From: Alphaproteobacteria bacterium
GTDB lineage: Bacteria > Pseudomonadota > Alphaproteobacteria > UBA828
Length of the DNA: 36,107 nucleotides
Direction of reading: 5' to 3'
NCBI GenBank assembly: GCA_022826665.1
Contig: JAJDUK010000010.1
Coordinates: forward strand, 1 to 36,107
Below are positions 8,686 through 15,088 of this stretch, piece after piece (position 1 is the first letter of the stretch; the number at the start of each line of letters is the position of its first letter). The position numbers and the translations under genes are program-made. The notes below the pieces were generated by a model. That model saw nothing but the letters and a program-made list of their open reading frames with translations. It searched no databases and had not been told where the DNA came from.

Positions 8686-9192
8686 CTATCGGGAAGGGGG
8701 AGCCTCGGCAAAACGCACGGTCAGGAGCTGGTCGCAGCCAGGCTGGAGAGGGAGCAGCCGCATGGCTCTGCCGGGCTGCACGGGCAACCAAGCGAACAGG
8801 CCGTGCGACCCCTGGCAGGCGCCCACTGCTGTCAGCGGCGGCATCGGGCTGTATTCCTCGTCGCATCCCTCCGCTCGGATAGCCCCGCCTATCACCACCA
8901 GGTCTCCTGGCTGAGCGCTGGCGTCGACGATCTCAGATGCATGTGGGTGCGACAGCAGAACGGCCCGAAACCAGCCTTCGCAGCTCCCGTAGCGCTGCAG
9001 CGCGGACTCCACGAGGGCGGGCACTGTCTTGTACTGATATTCCGCGGCGAGGACGGTGGGGGAGATTGGTACGCCGGTCAGCGCCTCCGCAACGGCAGAC
9101 GAGATCGCCAGGCAGTCTCGCTCTCCCCACCTGTAGGTCGTCCCGCTGAATGCGCTCAACACAGCGTCCGTTTTTGCGGCCCGGTCCGTCAT
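8686..9192 (-). CDS. DUF6950 / NlpC-P60-like phage protein
   Basis: 168 residues. YRWGERDCLAISSAVAEALTG (about residues 20-40) is the W-G-x-x-D-C motif with the catalytic-type Cys of the NlpC/P60-like DUF6950 family. Further on, PGDLVVIGG and GSHGLFAWLPV resemble the strand carrying the His of the triad. Family members in phages are tail-associated peptidoglycan hydrolases or tail-assembly proteases that act at the cell wall. It is the last gene of the late operon: its ATG follows the oxygenase stop by three bases and terminators follow its own stop. It could help fibre or tip penetration, or act in lysis; the sequence does not decide. Confidence 0.7.
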   Translation of the reverse strand: MTDRAAKTDAVLSAFSGTTYRWGERDCLAISSAVAEALTGVPISPTVLAAEYQYKTVPALVESALQRYGSCEGWFRAVLLSHPHASEIVDASAQPGDLVVIGGAIRAEGCDEEYSPMPPLTAVGACQGSHGLFAWLPVQPGRAMRLLPLQPGCDQLLTVRFAEAPPSR

Positions 9193-9195
9193 CCC

Positions 9196-10371
9196 TCAGT
9201 CCCCTCCCGCCCGCTGGAACCACACCACCAGGGTGTCCCTCACGCCGGCCTCGACTGGCAGGGCGGCATGGCGCTCGTCGGCACGGAAGAAGATGGCGTC
9301 GCCGGCGACCTGGTACGGGGTGCTGTCGCCTGCCCGCGGGAAGGTGGTGGCCCCGCCGCGCTCGGCATTCCTCAGTACGACGACGCAAGAGAGGGTCCTG
9401 CGCGCCGCAGGCCCCCCTCGGTCGACGTCGGCGTCGGCGTGCTCGCCGTACTTTCGCCCCGGCTTGTAGCGGGCGAATTGCATGGTCTGACCGCCACCGG
9501 AGATGTCGACCTTGTAGACCCGCTCGTTCACCAGCTCGGCCTGGCGGGCGAGCTTCGCATAGAGCCAGTGCCAGGGCTCACCCAACGATCCGTCGGCCCA
9601 GAACACGTCATTGTTCCGGATCTCCGGCCTCGGCCTGCCATCACCCACCCTCCCCGCCCGCCAGGCCGAATCGCCGAGCTGGCTGTAGACACAGGTGATG
9701 TCGTCCCGCGAGAGCACCTCCGGGACCAGCACATACGCCGGGACGCCGGTGGGCTCGGCGGGCCGGCGGCGCGACACCTGCTCGATGTTGAAGCTGACGC
9801 TGATACGCGGCTCCTCGCTCTCGTTCGGCTCGACGTGGTGCTGGATCCAGGACGGGAACATCACGAGCCGACCGGGCCGGCATGAGATGTTATGCAACGG
9901 CGCGATTCTGGAGGCCATCTTCCGCGCCTCACCGTAACTCGGCCGCCGCAGAAATGGTGCATTACCTCGCGGATCGAGCAGCACCAGGTCGCCGATGCCC
10001 TCGGGGGCGGCGACGTAATAGACGCCTGACCACAGGCAGCCCCCGTGATCGTGGATGGCGTTGAAGCCGCCCGGCCTGAGAACGTTCGCCCACATCTCGG
10101 TCAGGCGCACGCGCGATCCTCCGGCGTAGCCCTCCGCGCAAAACACGTCCGTCGCGGCCTCCACCACTGCCTTGACCAGCGGGACGAAGGCGGCGCGCTC
10201 GAAAGCGTTCACGCCGCTGTGCCAGGAGGCCGAGCGGTTGGAGCGAGGCATGCCGTCGGGGTCGATCGACTCCCACTCCACGATGTCGGCGCGAAGGAGC
10301 TGGTTGAGCGCATCTGCGCCCTCCACGTCCTGGGTGTAGAGCGGCGTCGAAAAAAGATCGGTCCGTTGCAT
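9196..10371 (-). CDS. Two-domain 2-oxoglutarate/Fe(II) oxygenase, C-terminal domain prolyl-4-hydroxylase-like
   Basis: 391 residues. Residues 1-200 fit the TIGR02466 type of putative 2OG-Fe(II) oxygenase: MQRTDLFSTPLY start, NAIHDHGG (His107-Asp108-His109), SGVYYV, then GRLVMFPSWIQHHVEP (His178/179) and Arg189 for 2-oxoglutarate. Residues about 270-388 are a P4Hc-type domain: ARYKPGRKYGEHADAD (His311-x-Asp313), ERGGATTFP, GDAIFF, then ERHAALPVEAG (His368) and Arg378. Both metal triads and both 2OG-binding Arg are present, so both domains may be active. The ATG lies one base after the stop of the Pro-rich protein gene, which implies translational coupling and makes that protein the obvious candidate substrate. 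In-frame sequence upstream of 10371 is antiparallel read of the repeats and is not part of the gene. Confidence 0.88.
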   Translation of the reverse strand: MQRTDLFSTPLYTQDVEGADALNQLLRADIVEWESIDPDGMPRSNRSASWHSGVNAFERAAFVPLVKAVVEAATDVFCAEGYAGGSRVRLTEMWANVLRPGGFNAIHDHGGCLWSGVYYVAAPEGIGDLVLLDPRGNAPFLRRPSYGEARKMASRIAPLHNISCRPGRLVMFPSWIQHHVEPNESEEPRISVSFNIEQVSRRRPAEPTGVPAYVLVPEVLSRDDITCVYSQLGDSAWRAGRVGDGRPRPEIRNNDVFWADGSLGEPWHWLYAKLARQAELVNERVYKVDISGGGQTMQFARYKPGRKYGEHADADVDRGGPAARRTLSCVVVLRNAERGGATTFPRAGDSTPYQVAGDAIFFRADERHAALPVEAGVRDTLVVWFQRAGGD

Positions 10372-10372
10372 G

Positions 10373-11146
10373 TCAGTACCAGTCCGGATCAGGGATGTCC
10401 GGCCCCTCCGTGCCACTGCCTGGGATATCCGGCCCCTCGACGGGGTCTCCCGGAACGGGGCGGCCCTCGACGGGGTCTCCCGGAACGGGATCGCCCTCGA
10501 CGGGGTCTCCCGGAACGTCAGGACCTTCTTGCGCGGGTACCCATCCTCGCCCCCCGGAGACGTCAGGCCCCTCGACCGGAGGTTCTCTCGATGCCGGGAT
10601 CCAGACGCGAGGCCCCTCGACGGGAGCGCCTTCGAGGGGCGGCGCCGGGACGGGAGCGCCTTCGAGGGGCGGCACCGGGACGGGAGCGCCTTCACTGCGG
10701 CTGACCGAGCGGCGCCTGCCATGAATCGATCCATAATTGCAGGGCACGTCACCGGGGGTGTTGTAGCTTTCACGGCGGCCCATTTTCCCGTCCTCTACCA
10801 GCCAGGAGCACGTGGTGGTCACGATGTCCGGGCCTTCACGGTCCGGCTGCGGGATGGGAGCGCCTTCACGGTCCGGCTGCGGGACGGGGTCTCCCGGAAC
10901 GTCAGGACCCTCGGTCCATCGGCCCGGAATTCGCGCGCCAGGAACGTCAGGCCCTTCGCCTGGGGGAAGCGAGCGCCAATAGCCCGCACGGCTGTCCGGC
11001 CCCTCGACGGGATCGCCCGCAACGTCAGGACCCTCGACCAAGGGGCGGACGTCAGGACCCTCTGTTCCCGAGCCTCTCGCGTCCGGCCCTTCGATCTGAG
11101 GCCGCTCGCTGCCGTAGATGATGACGTATGGCAGAGGGACGCCCAT
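10373..11146 (-). CDS. Pro-rich decapeptide-repeat protein, probable virion/fibre protein and oxygenase substrate
   Basis: 257 residues from the ATG that follows GGCGGATAGGGCGG. After MGVPLPYVIIYGSERPQ the protein is almost all modules starting Glu-Gly (18 of them), ideally EGPDVPGDPV with Pro at positions 3, 6 and 9. Variants are EGAPVPVPPL, EGAPIPQPDR and EGRPVPGDPV. It has 54 prolines (21 percent). One interruption (about residues 110-150) contains two Cys and many basic residues. The C-terminus is DIPDPDWY. No known domain is seen; regularly spaced Pro suggests an extended polyproline-II rod. It lies between the tail fibre and the prolyl-hydroxylase-type enzyme, 5 bases after the first and 1 base before the second. 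A fibre extension or tail-associated rod is inferred. Confidence 0.75.
   Translation of the reverse strand: MGVPLPYVIIYGSERPQIEGPDARGSGTEGPDVRPLVEGPDVAGDPVEGPDSRAGYWRSLPPGEGPDVPGARIPGRWTEGPDVPGDPVPQPDREGAPIPQPDREGPDIVTTTCSWLVEDGKMGRRESYNTPGDVPCNYGSIHGRRRSVSRSEGAPVPVPPLEGAPVPAPPLEGAPVEGPRVWIPASREPPVEGPDVSGGRGWVPAQEGPDVPGDPVEGDPVPGDPVEGRPVPGDPVEGPDIPGSGTEGPDIPDPDWY
10431..10520. repeat. 30-bp coding repeats (three perfect-register units)
   Basis: Units 10431-10460, 10461-10490 and 10491-10520 share CCTCGACGGGGTCTCCCGGA. Further 30-bp units occur at 10621-10680 (CGGGAGCGCCTTCGAGGGGC) and around 10837-10890 (CTTCACGGTCCGGCTGCGGG). They encode the ten-residue Pro modules. DNA-level identity shows recent expansion by slippage or unequal exchange. 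Confidence 0.9.
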
Positions 11147-11151
11147 CCGCC

Positions 11152-12111
11152 CTATCCGCCGTAGTCGAAGCGCTGGGCGACGAGCCGCAGCACGTTGAAG
11201 ACCCGCGTGAAGCCGAGGAACGTGATCGCGTCGGCATCCTGATCGATGACGCCGGTGAGCGCCCCCAGGTCCACGTCGGCCGGCAGCGTGAGAGCGTGGC
11301 CTCCCGTGGCGTCCTGCTTCACCCACAGGAAGTAGCTCTGCCCCTCGACGGTGTTCGATATCGCCAGGGCTCGGTCGGCGGTCAGCGTCAACTTCGCCGA
11401 TGCGTGCGCCGCCGCATCCCACTGCACCGTCGCGGCGTCGGCGAGCACGCCCACGCTGTAGTCCGGGATCGCGAAATCGATCTCCATCTCGTCGTCGTCG
11501 GCCGACACGCCATGCTGCTCGCCGGGATGCAGGATCTCCTTCACCGCCGCGTAGAGGTTGGCCTTGGTCGGGGTGAAGGCGATATCGATCTCTTTGTCGG
11601 CGTCGTCGGCGGTCACGGCTGCCTGGTCGCCGGGATGCAGGATCTCCTTCACCGCCGCGTAGAGGTTGGCCTTGGTCGGGGTGAAGGCACCCGGAATCGT
11701 GAGCGCGGCGAGCGCGGCCCTGACGAAGGCCGTCGTCGCCAGGCGTGTCGTGTTGTTGCCCGCCGGCGGCGTGGGCGCCTTGGGCTGGCCCGTGAAGGTG
11801 GGGTTGGCGATCCGCGCGTAGGCCGAGAGGTCGGTCGCCGGAATGGTGCTGATGGCCGCTGCCAGCTCGGTCGGGGTGATGAACAGCTGCAGCAGCGCGT
11901 CCCGGAACTGGTTCGGATCGTGATCGGGCGAGAGCGAGGCCTGCTCGATCACCGTGACGATCGCCTCGACCAGCATGTAGAAGGTGTAGGCGCCGACGAC
12001 GGTCGGATCGACGTTGCGCGAGCTGTCGCCTTCCGTGGGATAGCCCTCGCTGGGCGCCTCGGCCGAGGACGGCGGCGACGACGACGCGCCGCTGTAGTAC
12101 GCTCGTTTCAC
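11152..12111 (-). CDS. Tail fibre protein
   Basis: 319 residues, GTG start preceded by a G-run. The N-terminal low-complexity Ser/Pro/Glu segment (SSSPPSSAEAPSEG) is followed by a helical part and a Phage_fiber_2-like motif, NPTFTGQPKAPTPPAGNNTTRLATTAFV (shown here as a family pattern, about residues 103-130). Two copies of AFTPTKANLYAAVKEILHPG (about residues 141-160 and 177-196) come from a DNA tandem duplication. The C-terminal part is beta-rich (LTLTADRALAIS, TGGHALTLPA) and ends FDYGG. It follows gp48, the usual Mu fibre position, and probably contacts the host surface. It is short for a fibre, so a chaperone-like partner would be expected, but none is recognised downstream. Confidence 0.78.
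   Translation of the reverse strand: MKRAYYSGASSSPPSSAEAPSEGYPTEGDSSRNVDPTVVGAYTFYMLVEAIVTVIEQASLSPDHDPNQFRDALLQLFITPTELAAAISTIPATDLSAYARIANPTFTGQPKAPTPPAGNNTTRLATTAFVRAALAALTIPGAFTPTKANLYAAVKEILHPGDQAAVTADDADKEIDIAFTPTKANLYAAVKEILHPGEQHGVSADDDEMEIDFAIPDYSVGVLADAATVQWDAAAHASAKLTLTADRALAISNTVEGQSYFLWVKQDATGGHALTLPADVDLGALTGVIDQDADAITFLGFTRVFNVLRLVAQRFDYGG
11519..11688. repeat. Tandem duplication within the tail fibre gene
   Basis: A 62-bp block is identical at 11519-11580 and 11627-11688 (starts TCGCCGGGATGCAGGATCTC), a period of 108 bp or 36 codons. The flanking parts of the units have diverged (AVTADDADKEID versus GVSADDDEMEID), so the shared block is either recent or kept identical by conversion. 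Confidence 0.9.
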
Positions 12112-12125
12112 CGCCCCCCCTCCGA

Positions 12126-13295
12126 TCAGGTCGTGGTGACCGTGGCCGTCTGCGAGGCCCTCTGGCCCGCCGCGTCCACCACGCTGTAGACGATGTTCAC
12201 GTTCCGCCGCGTCGTTCCCGTGGGGTCACCGCCCCAATAGGTGCCGGACCACGTGCGGGTCGCGGAGCTGAACGTCATCTCCCTGCAGCCGGCGTATGTG
12301 TGGCCGCCATGGGACACCGCCGGACCCAGCGAATAGGTGTATGGCTCGACCCCGCCCGTCGCTGCCGGGAAGACCTTGGTGAGGTTCTCCAGGTGCCGGT
12401 GCCGGAAGTCCGCCACCGCCGGCAGGGTCAGCGCCGGCGGCGCGGCCACGGAATGCTCGAACGTCCTGGTGGCGACGTCGCCGTCCTCGTCCGTGGCCGT
12501 ATAGGTCATCTCCGTGTCCGCCACGGCCGTCGGCGCGCCGTCCCAGACCCGGCTCGCCGGGGTGAACGTCATTCCGGGCACGTCGGGGCTCAGCGCATAG
12601 GTGAGCGCGCCGTTGCCGCCAGCCGCCTCGGGCAGGGTGTACTCCACGTTGACGTTCCGGTAGCCGCTGATGTCCGGCAGCGCCGGCAGCACGGGCGCGA
12701 CGTCGTAGATGAACAGCAGCAGCATGTGCGCAGGGTTCAGTTTGCGCAGTCGGCACTCGATCTCGGCGCTCCGCTGGATCGTGCGCAGCGGCGTGTTCAC
12801 GGTGGAGAGGACGTGGAAGCGCCGGACCTTGCCGGCCGGGAGCTTGATCCACCAGACGTAGCGCCACCTGCCGCCGCTGGTATCGAGGCCCTGGACCGCC
12901 TCCGCCCTGGGCTGGTCGAACTCGATGACGTCGATGTCGACGCCGTACCGCCGCGCGGTGGCGACGAACGTCGCGGGATTGAGGTTGGCCTTGGTCACGA
13001 TCTTCTCGATCACAGCGGCGCGCCGCTGCAGGACGTCGTCAGCCAGCCCCCCCCCAGAGCAGCTGTCGGGCAGCCCCGCGACCCGCTCCCAGTCCGGCAG
13101 CAGGTCCGTGGCGTGATCCGGCAGAGCCCCGTTTAGGAGCGCGGTGAGGCTGGTGTCGACCCTGGCGAGTTCGGACGAGAACGCGGCGACCAGTCGGGCC
13201 ATGCGTGTGCCCACCCCCGTCGCCCAGGCGCGGCCGGTCGGCAGCAGCCCGTGCACCTGCTCGCTGTAGGCGGCCTGGTCGAGCGGCTGGACCAT
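12126..13295 (-). CDS. Mu gp48-like baseplate protein with two C-terminal Ig-like repeats
   Basis: 389 residues. Residues 1-185 match the Mu gp48/YmfQ (DUF2313) family: YSEQVHGLLPTGRAWATGVG at the start, then LPDWERVAGLPDSC, FVATARRYGVDIDVIEF, and FHVLSTVNTPLRTI with RKLNPAHMLLLFIYD. This protein bridges baseplate wedge and fibre. Residues about 195-389 are an addition: two putative Ig-like (He_PIG-style) repeats, GNGALTYALSPDVPGMTF...AVADTEMTYTATDEDGD and GVEPYTYSLGP...RNVNIVYSVVDAAGQ. Normal gp48 lengths are close to the first part alone, so this is a fusion that probably adds a glycan- or surface-binding extension. Confidence 0.85.
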   Translation of the reverse strand: MVQPLDQAAYSEQVHGLLPTGRAWATGVGTRMARLVAAFSSELARVDTSLTALLNGALPDHATDLLPDWERVAGLPDSCSGGGLADDVLQRRAAVIEKIVTKANLNPATFVATARRYGVDIDVIEFDQPRAEAVQGLDTSGGRWRYVWWIKLPAGKVRRFHVLSTVNTPLRTIQRSAEIECRLRKLNPAHMLLLFIYDVAPVLPALPDISGYRNVNVEYTLPEAAGGNGALTYALSPDVPGMTFTPASRVWDGAPTAVADTEMTYTATDEDGDVATRTFEHSVAAPPALTLPAVADFRHRHLENLTKVFPAATGGVEPYTYSLGPAVSHGGHTYAGCREMTFSSATRTWSGTYWGGDPTGTTRRNVNIVYSVVDAAGQRASQTATVTTT

Positions 13296-13296
13296 C

Positions 13297-14370
13297 TCAG
13301 CCTCCGGGCCAGGTGATATCGCCGAGCACGGGGATCTGGTTGGCCTGGACCGTCACGTCGCCCGCCGGCACCGTGATGTCGTGGTCGGTCTCGCCGGCCG
13401 CCGTGGAGATCGCCTCGCGCAGGTGCGAGAGCAGGATCGTGCCGCCCGGCTCGCTGTCCCTCAGGATGGTGTCGGCGAGCTCCGCCGCGATCGCCGCGCG
13501 GACGTCCGCCGTGTCCGGCGTCACGCTCGTGATGGTGATGTCGATCGCCTCGGCCACAGGCGCGGCAGAGGTCACCTCCGCCCCCACGGGCCGTCTGCGG
13601 GCGATGTAGTCCCGCATGGAGAGAATCACGGCGGCGGCTGGAATGCCGTCCTCCGTGACGTCGTCCGTCATCGCATACACCGTCACGGTGCCGAGCCCGC
13701 TCGCGCGGGGGCGCGCCCAGGCCCGCGTCACGTCCTGGTGGCTTTCGCGCGCCCAGGCCTCGTAGTCTTCCTCGTTGCCGCCTCGAGGCGGGTTTCGGAT
13801 GCGTTCGAGCACTCGCTGGCGCAGGGCCTCGACGCCCTCGATGTCGGCGCCGCCGGCGATCGCCGTGCTCACGGGGGCCGCGCTTTCCACGCCTGCGATG
13901 GGCGAGACCAGGGTGAGCGTCACGCCCGTGTCCGCGTTGCCCGCCGCGCCGGCCTCCGCCGCCCGCACCCTGAACTCCAGGGTCCCGCCGTCGCCGATCG
14001 CCGTCCGTCCCTGGTTGCCCAGGTATTCGACGCCCGCGCCCGACCGCAGGCGAACGTCGCGGCGGCGGATGCTGGTGCCGGGGGCGCCGGTGAAGGTCAC
14101 GGTGCCCTTGGCGATCTTCGCAGCCTGCCGCTCCACCCCCCAGATCGCCGCCCAGCGAAGCAACATCGTCTCCCCGCACGTGTCGGGGAAGATCTGGCGG
14201 TATATCCACTCGGCGTAGCCGTAGAGCTCGTGGATGGCGCCGGCGAGGGCGCGCCCCAGGATGCCGAGCAGGGTGACGCGCAGCAGGGCATCGGTGCCCG
14301 GCAGGCGGGACTGGATGTCCGCCGCCACGCGGGTGACGATCTGGCGCAGGGTGGGGCGTGGGAACGGCAT
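13297..14370 (-). CDS. Baseplate J-like protein (Mu gp47)
   Basis: 357 residues, the normal size for gp47/gpJ wedge proteins. Typical features are the N-terminal PTLRQIVTRVAADIQSRLPG, LYGYAEWIYRQIFPDT, LLRWAAIWGVER (about residues 70-81), the beta-rich centre with GTVTFTGAPGTSI and GNADTGVTLTLVSPIAGV, and PPRGGNEEDYEAWARE (about 195-210). It polymerises with gp46 and gp48 to form the baseplate wedges. The ATG overlaps the gp46 stop by one base, so the genes are translationally coupled. Confidence 0.93.
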   Translation of the reverse strand: MPFPRPTLRQIVTRVAADIQSRLPGTDALLRVTLLGILGRALAGAIHELYGYAEWIYRQIFPDTCGETMLLRWAAIWGVERQAAKIAKGTVTFTGAPGTSIRRRDVRLRSGAGVEYLGNQGRTAIGDGGTLEFRVRAAEAGAAGNADTGVTLTLVSPIAGVESAAPVSTAIAGGADIEGVEALRQRVLERIRNPPRGGNEEDYEAWARESHQDVTRAWARPRASGLGTVTVYAMTDDVTEDGIPAAAVILSMRDYIARRRPVGAEVTSAAPVAEAIDITITSVTPDTADVRAAIAAELADTILRDSEPGGTILLSHLREAISTAAGETDHDITVPAGDVTVQANQIPVLGDITWPGG

Positions 14371-14816
14371 CAGCCGGCCTGCAGCGCGTCGAGGAACTGG
14401 TATTCAAGGATGGTGCCGTCCGGCCTGGTGACCCTGACGTCCAGGCACATGAGCTGGGGCGGCCGCCACGCCGCGTCCGCCTCGGCCTTGCGCAGCACCC
14501 CGTCCTCGACCATCCAGGCGAGGGCGTCACGGCTATGCCTCTCGGCCTTGCGCAGCACCTCCGTGGTCTGCTTCTCGCGCCTCAGCGTCCACAGCAGCGA
14601 GCCGAGCCGGAAGCCGTCCTCGGCGAGGCTGTCTCCCCACCAGCCCCGGCGGTCGACCTCGCCGTCCGGCAGGTCGTCGGCCTCGGCGCGCCGGTCGGTG
14701 AACAGCGACAGCAGAATGGCGGTCTTCAGCCCGTCCTCGCTGGCGAGATCGGCGCCGTCCGTCTCGATATCGCCGACCGAGAGGCTCTCGTTCCAGCGCA
14801 GCAGGATGTCGGTCAT
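14370..14816 (-). CDS. Mu gp46-like baseplate wedge protein
   Basis: 148 residues from the ATG that overlaps the PAAR stop as ATGA. Family features are MTDILLRWNESLSVGDIE, then DGLKTAILLSLFTDRRA and RRGWWGDSLAEDGFRLGSLLW (Trp-Trp-Gly-Asp is characteristic of the GP46 family, related to gpW/gp25). It forms part of the wedge at the sheath-baseplate interface. No oddity is seen. Confidence 0.92.
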   Translation of the reverse strand: MTDILLRWNESLSVGDIETDGADLASEDGLKTAILLSLFTDRRAEADDLPDGEVDRRGWWGDSLAEDGFRLGSLLWTLRREKQTTEVLRKAERHSRDALAWMVEDGVLRKAEADAAWRPPQLMCLDVRVTRPDGTILEYQFLDALQAG

Positions 14817-15088
14817 TCGCTGAACACCCACGCCGACCCGGTGGACGCGTGCCCGCAGGTCGCGGCGTCGCCGGCGCGGCAGACGGGAATGCCGCCGATG
14901 AAGACGAAGGCGCTGGCGCCGGCCATGGTCGGCGAGCAGTGCACCGGAACGTCGGGGCAGGGCGGATGCGCCGCCACGGCGTCGCCGCGCACGACCTCGA
15001 GCGCGCCGTCGATATAGACGAAGCCGTTGCCGCCGCCGAGCTGGGTGCCGCCGGCGGTGTCCCGGCCGACTCGCGCCACGCCCGGCAT
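14813..15088 (-). CDS. PAAR-domain spike tip protein
   Basis: 91 residues, the normal size of a single PAAR domain. MPGVARVGRDTAGG opens the fold, followed by GGNGFVYIDGALEVVRGD, AHPPCPD, HCSPTMAGASAFVFIGGIPVCRAGD and TCGHASTGS. Cys and His positions match the zinc site at the point of the cone. It caps the gp45 spike and is the first part of the tail to enter the envelope. Its start overlaps the gp45 stop by one base. No effector extension is present. Confidence 0.9.
   Translation of the reverse strand: MPGVARVGRDTAGGTQLGGGNGFVYIDGALEVVRGDAVAAHPPCPDVPVHCSPTMAGASAFVFIGGIPVCRAGDAATCGHASTGSAWVFSE

Follow-up and report, generated by a model that had tools for sequence, protein, structure and literature searches.

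The 36,107-nt contig analyzed here (the window) encodes, judging from its gene content, a Mu-like phage or prophage, and the tail operon of this phage includes a predicted enzyme in which two 2OG/Fe(II) oxygenase domains are fused in one 391-aa chain with their signature residues intact. The enzyme gene directly follows the gene of a repeat protein rich in proline, glycine, and acidic residues, a pairing known from this one phage only. Tentatively, and with somewhat less than even confidence, we favor an explanation in which the fused two-domain hydroxylase is coexpressed with the tail proteins and modifies a tail-associated protein, likeliest the adjacent repeat protein.

The window spans contig C30 completely; the draft genome to which it belongs is 4.6 Mb in size. 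Its Mu-like content comprises a sheath, tape measure, gp44/46/47/48 baseplate, tail fiber, head protease, and a repressor-like gene. Based on the DNA alone, an initial sequence-only reading had placed the gene pair behind the tail fiber in the late operon, with TGA, one base, and ATG between the two genes. Both points are confirmed: the pair sits after the tail fiber gene within the Mu-like tail operon (Table 1), and the repeat-gene TGA is followed by a single base (10372) and then by the enzyme ATG at 10371. Because stop and start are only one base apart, this suggests translational coupling of the repeat protein and the enzyme. Third-position G+C is lower in the enzyme, repeat, and DUF6950 genes than in the tail genes; as the DUF6950 gene is low too, these three genes may have been acquired jointly. 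Within the tail fiber, about 36 residues are duplicated in tandem (window positions 11471-11688; 108-nt unit, 90% match).

Table 1. Coordinates of the enzyme, its domains, and the neighboring genes in the window.
Feature	Coordinates	Strand	Evidence
DUF6950 protein, directly downstream of enzyme	8686..9192	-	PF22262, E 8e-9
Two-domain 2OG/Fe(II) oxygenase (enzyme), 391 aa (P0001)	9196..10371	-	Sequence and profile matches
C domain (residues 203-391), P4Hc/PF13640; H311-x-D313, H368, R378, GGATTFP	9199..9765	-	
N domain (residues 1-205), TIGR02466/PF13759; H107-x-H109, H178, R189	9757..10371	-	
Pro/Gly/acid-rich pentapeptide-repeat protein, 257 aa (P0002), orphan	10373..11146	-	
Tail fiber-like protein, directly upstream of repeat gene	11152..12111	-	PHROG 4209 tail fiber, E 1e-14
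Mu-like baseplate genes gp48, gp47 (J), gp46	12126..14831	-	

Both enzyme domains score above curated cut-offs. The N domain was assigned to TIGR02466 by score and by its conserved HxH/H/R residues: it matches PF13759 (E 9e-27) and TIGR02466 (120.4 bits vs an NCBIfam cut-off of 62.5), and H107, H109, H178, and R189 are invariant among 21 sequences. We modeled the two domains separately with AlphaFold2 because C-domain sequences aligned onto the N domain in a mixed full-length alignment. The N domain model (pLDDT 90.8) has its best PDB match in 3bvc and also matches 2rg4; these are structures of TIGR02466 proteins, which have the same invariant residues as the window N domain. The TIGR02466 relatives that we found differ from the window enzyme in having no fused P4Hc domain.

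The C domain has the P4Hc metal triad (HxD...H), the 2OG-binding basic residue, the profile match (PF13640, E 1e-17; 65 bits vs a cut-off of 27), and the predicted fold. H311 and H368 are invariant among 21 sequences, while D313 and R378 are nearly invariant. The leading PDB matches of its model (pLDDT 85) are mostly prolyl hydroxylases: an algal P4H bound to a (Ser-Pro)5 peptide comes first (Z 20.4) and the Pseudomonas putida P4H with EF-Tu second (Z 19.5), with the PBCV-1 P4H (Z 18.9) and PHD2 (Z about 18) further down. The PKHD-like structure 3dkq falls below the prolyl hydroxylases (Z 16.1), and classification as a PKHD-type hydroxylase (YbiX, PRK05467) was rejected, with a best score of 42.9 bits against an equivalog cut-off of 143. 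The best solved sequence relative is the PBCV-1 P4H (PDB 5c5t; E 7e-6). Altogether, sequence and predicted fold convincingly mark the enzyme as prolyl-4-hydroxylase-like, though a common fold is no proof of the substrate or of the residue modified. The sequence-only reading had recognized the signature residues of the C-terminal half, which stand, and had overlooked the second oxygenase domain in the N-terminal half. The metal residues, whose loss in close homologs it had set as a check, are retained in the relatives of both domains.

The repeat protein contains 54 Pro, 41 Gly, and 45 Asp+Glu among its 257 residues, with 18 "EG" starts, mostly EGPD[VI]..., plus VPGDP/IPGSG pentamers; the earlier description of 54 prolines, mostly in EGPDVPGDPV-like modules, is thus accurate. 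Its units are pentapeptides (e.g., EGPDV, PGDPV, EGDPV, and PGSGT). Shifted one residue earlier, the register reads V-[P/E]-G-x-P, closer to elastin-type pentamers than to collagen triplets; there are nine Pro-Gly sites. We considered and rejected a collagen-like protein: Gly-X-Y is absent, and the protein is built from pentapeptides such as VPGDP/VEGPD. The sole Pfam match is Extensin_1 (18.8 bits vs a cut-off of 105).

The repeat ORF probably codes for a protein, because its copies stay in frame and vary synonymously. Within the gene, the offset is a multiple of 3 in 608 of 618 pairs of similar 15-nt windows. Codon position 3 is the most variable among aligned repeat copies (site means 0.404 vs 0.307 and 0.335; P = 2e-4 and 4e-3, for sites that are not fully independent). 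Of the codon differences, a share of 0.34 is synonymous in the repeat frame vs 0.10-0.20 in other frames; the exception is one antisense frame with a share of 0.35, but it has 6 stops inside, and the antisense frame that is open has the lowest share (0.105). Judged by these patterns, the repeats are under protein-level constraint. Third-codon-position G+C of the gene is unusual (0.705, where other late genes have 0.77-0.96) and its codon usage is not phage-like. Such atypical usage would suit a gene that was acquired recently or is not under selection, and it counts against our favored explanation.

Full-length relatives of the enzyme were found in none of the phages, viral contigs, genome contigs, or plasmids searched. 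Likewise, 22 order-level and 398 phylum-level genomes held no full-length relative, only N domain matches, and a C-domain search of 240 class-level genomes returned only weak matches of C-domain length; peptide-pattern scans detect close relatives only, and a distant tandem homolog could escape them. The repeat protein has no relatives in any collection searched. A DNA search with a degenerate EGPD-VPGDP pattern hit viral contigs twice, both times by chance, and a search with the non-repeat middle of the protein gave none. We also collected 86 Mu-like loci via the baseplate J protein, some of them short enough that absence is uncertain for a given locus, and these contained neither the enzyme nor EGPD repeats. 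The check proposed in the sequence-only reading, that relatives should carry both genes together, therefore failed: the repeat protein is an orphan, the Mu-like loci lack both genes, and the marine P4Hc-TIGR02466 loci described below have no proline-rich neighbor. In the Chromohalobacter phage YPCBV-1, the equivalent place behind the Mu-like baseplate genes holds a diversity-generating retroelement with a SUMF1/EgtB-type protein (L038:10291-13070).

The N-domain profile search yielded 80 viral and 79 genome loci. In 76 of the 80 marine viral loci, the TIGR02466 gene is immediately preceded by a separate P4Hc gene, homologous to the C domain; the loci are closely related to one another, so these 76 are not independent cases. 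The same order occurs in one of the 79 genome loci (L218), whose gene content is like that of the viral contigs, and in none of the 78 cellular loci; in five cellular loci that we inspected, the TIGR02466 gene sits amid differing, mostly housekeeping-like neighbors. Where the pair loci have sufficient flanking sequence, a Kelch/fiber-like gene is found upstream in 43 of 53 and a virion structural gene downstream in 41 of 49. Genes flanking the viral pairs include further 2OG oxygenases and, in 22 of 80 loci, a sulfotransferase; a proline-rich neighbor occurs in 0 of the 80 viral loci. Because marine phages encode both enzymes side by side near virion genes, the window enzyme is best read, from sequence, as a fusion of two functionally linked enzymes whose genes are neighbors in other phages. 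The marine viral arrangement, found in many contigs and analogous to that of the window, favors virion-protein modification and supports a function of the window enzyme close to tail assembly.

In these viral loci (L136-L215; e.g., L194:2739-7232), as many as five 2OG oxygenase-like genes form a compact cluster between fiber-like and virion-structural genes, and it is possible that the cluster is a protein-modification cassette. One member, the PHROG 2954 "ferrochelatase" (L194:6588-7232; homologs in 76 of 80 viral loci), has, like a 2OG oxygenase, an HxD motif (RHKD) and a later His, so its "ferrochelatase" label may be wrong.

Viral prolyl hydroxylases are already known. One such enzyme, the small prolyl 4-hydroxylase of the chlorella virus PBCV-1, is active, with known activity on peptides (PMC7019647). 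Like the window enzyme, it (5c5t) is a virus-encoded P4H, and it is a close match to the C domain by sequence and structure, but it has a single catalytic domain without a TIGR02466 fusion and belongs to a eukaryotic virus. Hydroxyproline was sought in PBCV-1 virion proteins and not found (PMC7019647); since such attempts failed in chlorella viruses, this result counts against our favored explanation. Marine-phage 2OG oxygenase clusters (PHROG 61 and 81; PMC9599517) share with the window the presence of P4Hc and TIGR02466 together near virion genes. However, they have two genes, P4Hc then TIGR02466, where the window has one fused gene with the opposite domain order, and they lack a proline-rich repeat protein. 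In light of the PBCV-1 P4H (PMC7019647) and the pelagiphage clusters (PMC9599517), the earlier claim that no phage system of this kind is described was too strong.

Two other systems resemble the one proposed here. Mimivirus, with its collagen and lysyl hydroxylase L230, modifies a repetitive extended protein (PMC5802723), and collagen-like phage fibers are built from repetitive extended proteins (PMC3368898). The Mimivirus protein is a Gly-X-Y collagen with a lysyl hydroxylase and the phage fibers are collagen-like, whereas the window repeat is not Gly-X-Y. Our literature search, largely without subscription papers, turned up no phage reported to hydroxylate a virion protein of its own, and nothing on hydroxylation of elastin-type pentapeptides. 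According to a Baltic Sea virome study, the purpose that P4H serves in viruses "remains cryptic" (PMC9301287).

In the explanation that we favor, the enzyme would be a virally encoded protein hydroxylase, probably active, that is produced together with the tail proteins. The C domain would hydroxylate prolines and the N domain perhaps other residues. The enzyme likely acts on a phage structural protein, and we infer that its most likely target is the product of the repeat gene, which ends one base before the enzyme gene begins; the extended X-Pro-Gly/X-Pro pentapeptides of this protein would be suited to the open groove that prolyl 4-hydroxylases have. A candidate substrate peptide is VPGDPVEGPDIPG, with the tail fiber and EF-Tu as rival substrates. 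The repeat protein would be present in the virion, and its hydroxylation would give a stiffer or surface-altered elastin-like linker or appendage. The sequence-only reading, that the phage hydroxylates its own repeat protein, holds as to the P4H-like enzyme and the tail-assembly context; it fell short on co-occurrence, and its substrate is presumptive. We saw no support for its suggestion of further modification by glycosylation.

Since the enzyme's marine relatives have no proline-rich neighbor, they count against the repeat protein as substrate. These phages keep the unfused P4Hc-TIGR02466 pair among fiber-like and virion genes, as would be expected if the enzyme targeted another virion protein, such as the baseplate or the tail fiber encoded next to the repeat gene, and had no connection with the repeat protein. 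We consider this somewhat unlikely for the window, where the enzyme start adjoins the repeat gene and not the fiber gene, and where the tail fiber is not proline-rich. A host protein such as EF-Tu might instead be the target during infection or lysogeny: the P. putida P4H, which ranks second among the structural matches of the C domain, hydroxylates EF-Tu Pro54 (PMC6235002). The late tail-operon position of the enzyme gene makes this improbable, and the analogous pairs of other phages are likewise among virion genes.

We give a lower rating again to a moron or auxiliary gene with a metabolic or 2OG-consuming role and no virion protein substrate. Low third-position G+C in the enzyme, repeat, and DUF6950 genes fits such recent acquisition, and the literature files genes of this type as auxiliary: pelagiphage 2OG oxygenases are described as clustered, co-located auxiliary metabolic genes beside "ferrochelatases" (PMC9599517), and a 2OG-modulating role was proposed for those of cyanophages (PMC3037559). 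The prolyl-hydroxylase-type fold, the fusion of two protein-hydroxylase-like domains, and the recurring place beside structural genes argue otherwise. Finally, the orphan status, atypical codon usage, and open antisense frame of the repeat ORF would suit a short DNA repeat that spread and stayed open by chance, with no functional protein. This is very improbable given that the frame is kept across many different offsets, that the copies vary synonymously in the repeat frame, and that the synonymous share is lowest in the antisense frame that is open.

Modification of a tail-associated protein by the fused hydroxylase thus remains our preferred reading. The broader proposition, which we regard as possible but doubtful, is a dedicated phage system that hydroxylates its own repeat-built tail appendage, with the fused prolyl-hydroxylase-type enzyme and an elastin-like proline-repeat substrate encoded side by side and translated together, and with conserved tail-modifying hydroxylase cassettes across marine phages. 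The claim is open to direct test by expression of the two genes and mass spectrometry. If true, this would be, to our knowledge, the first demonstrated case of a phage hydroxylating a protein of its own virion, and the many unexplained 2OG oxygenase genes of marine phages, commonly classed as auxiliary metabolic genes, would gain a role. Altogether, the fused double oxygenase and the repeat protein behind the tail fiber gene suggest, tentatively, chemical modification of tail proteins by the phage itself.
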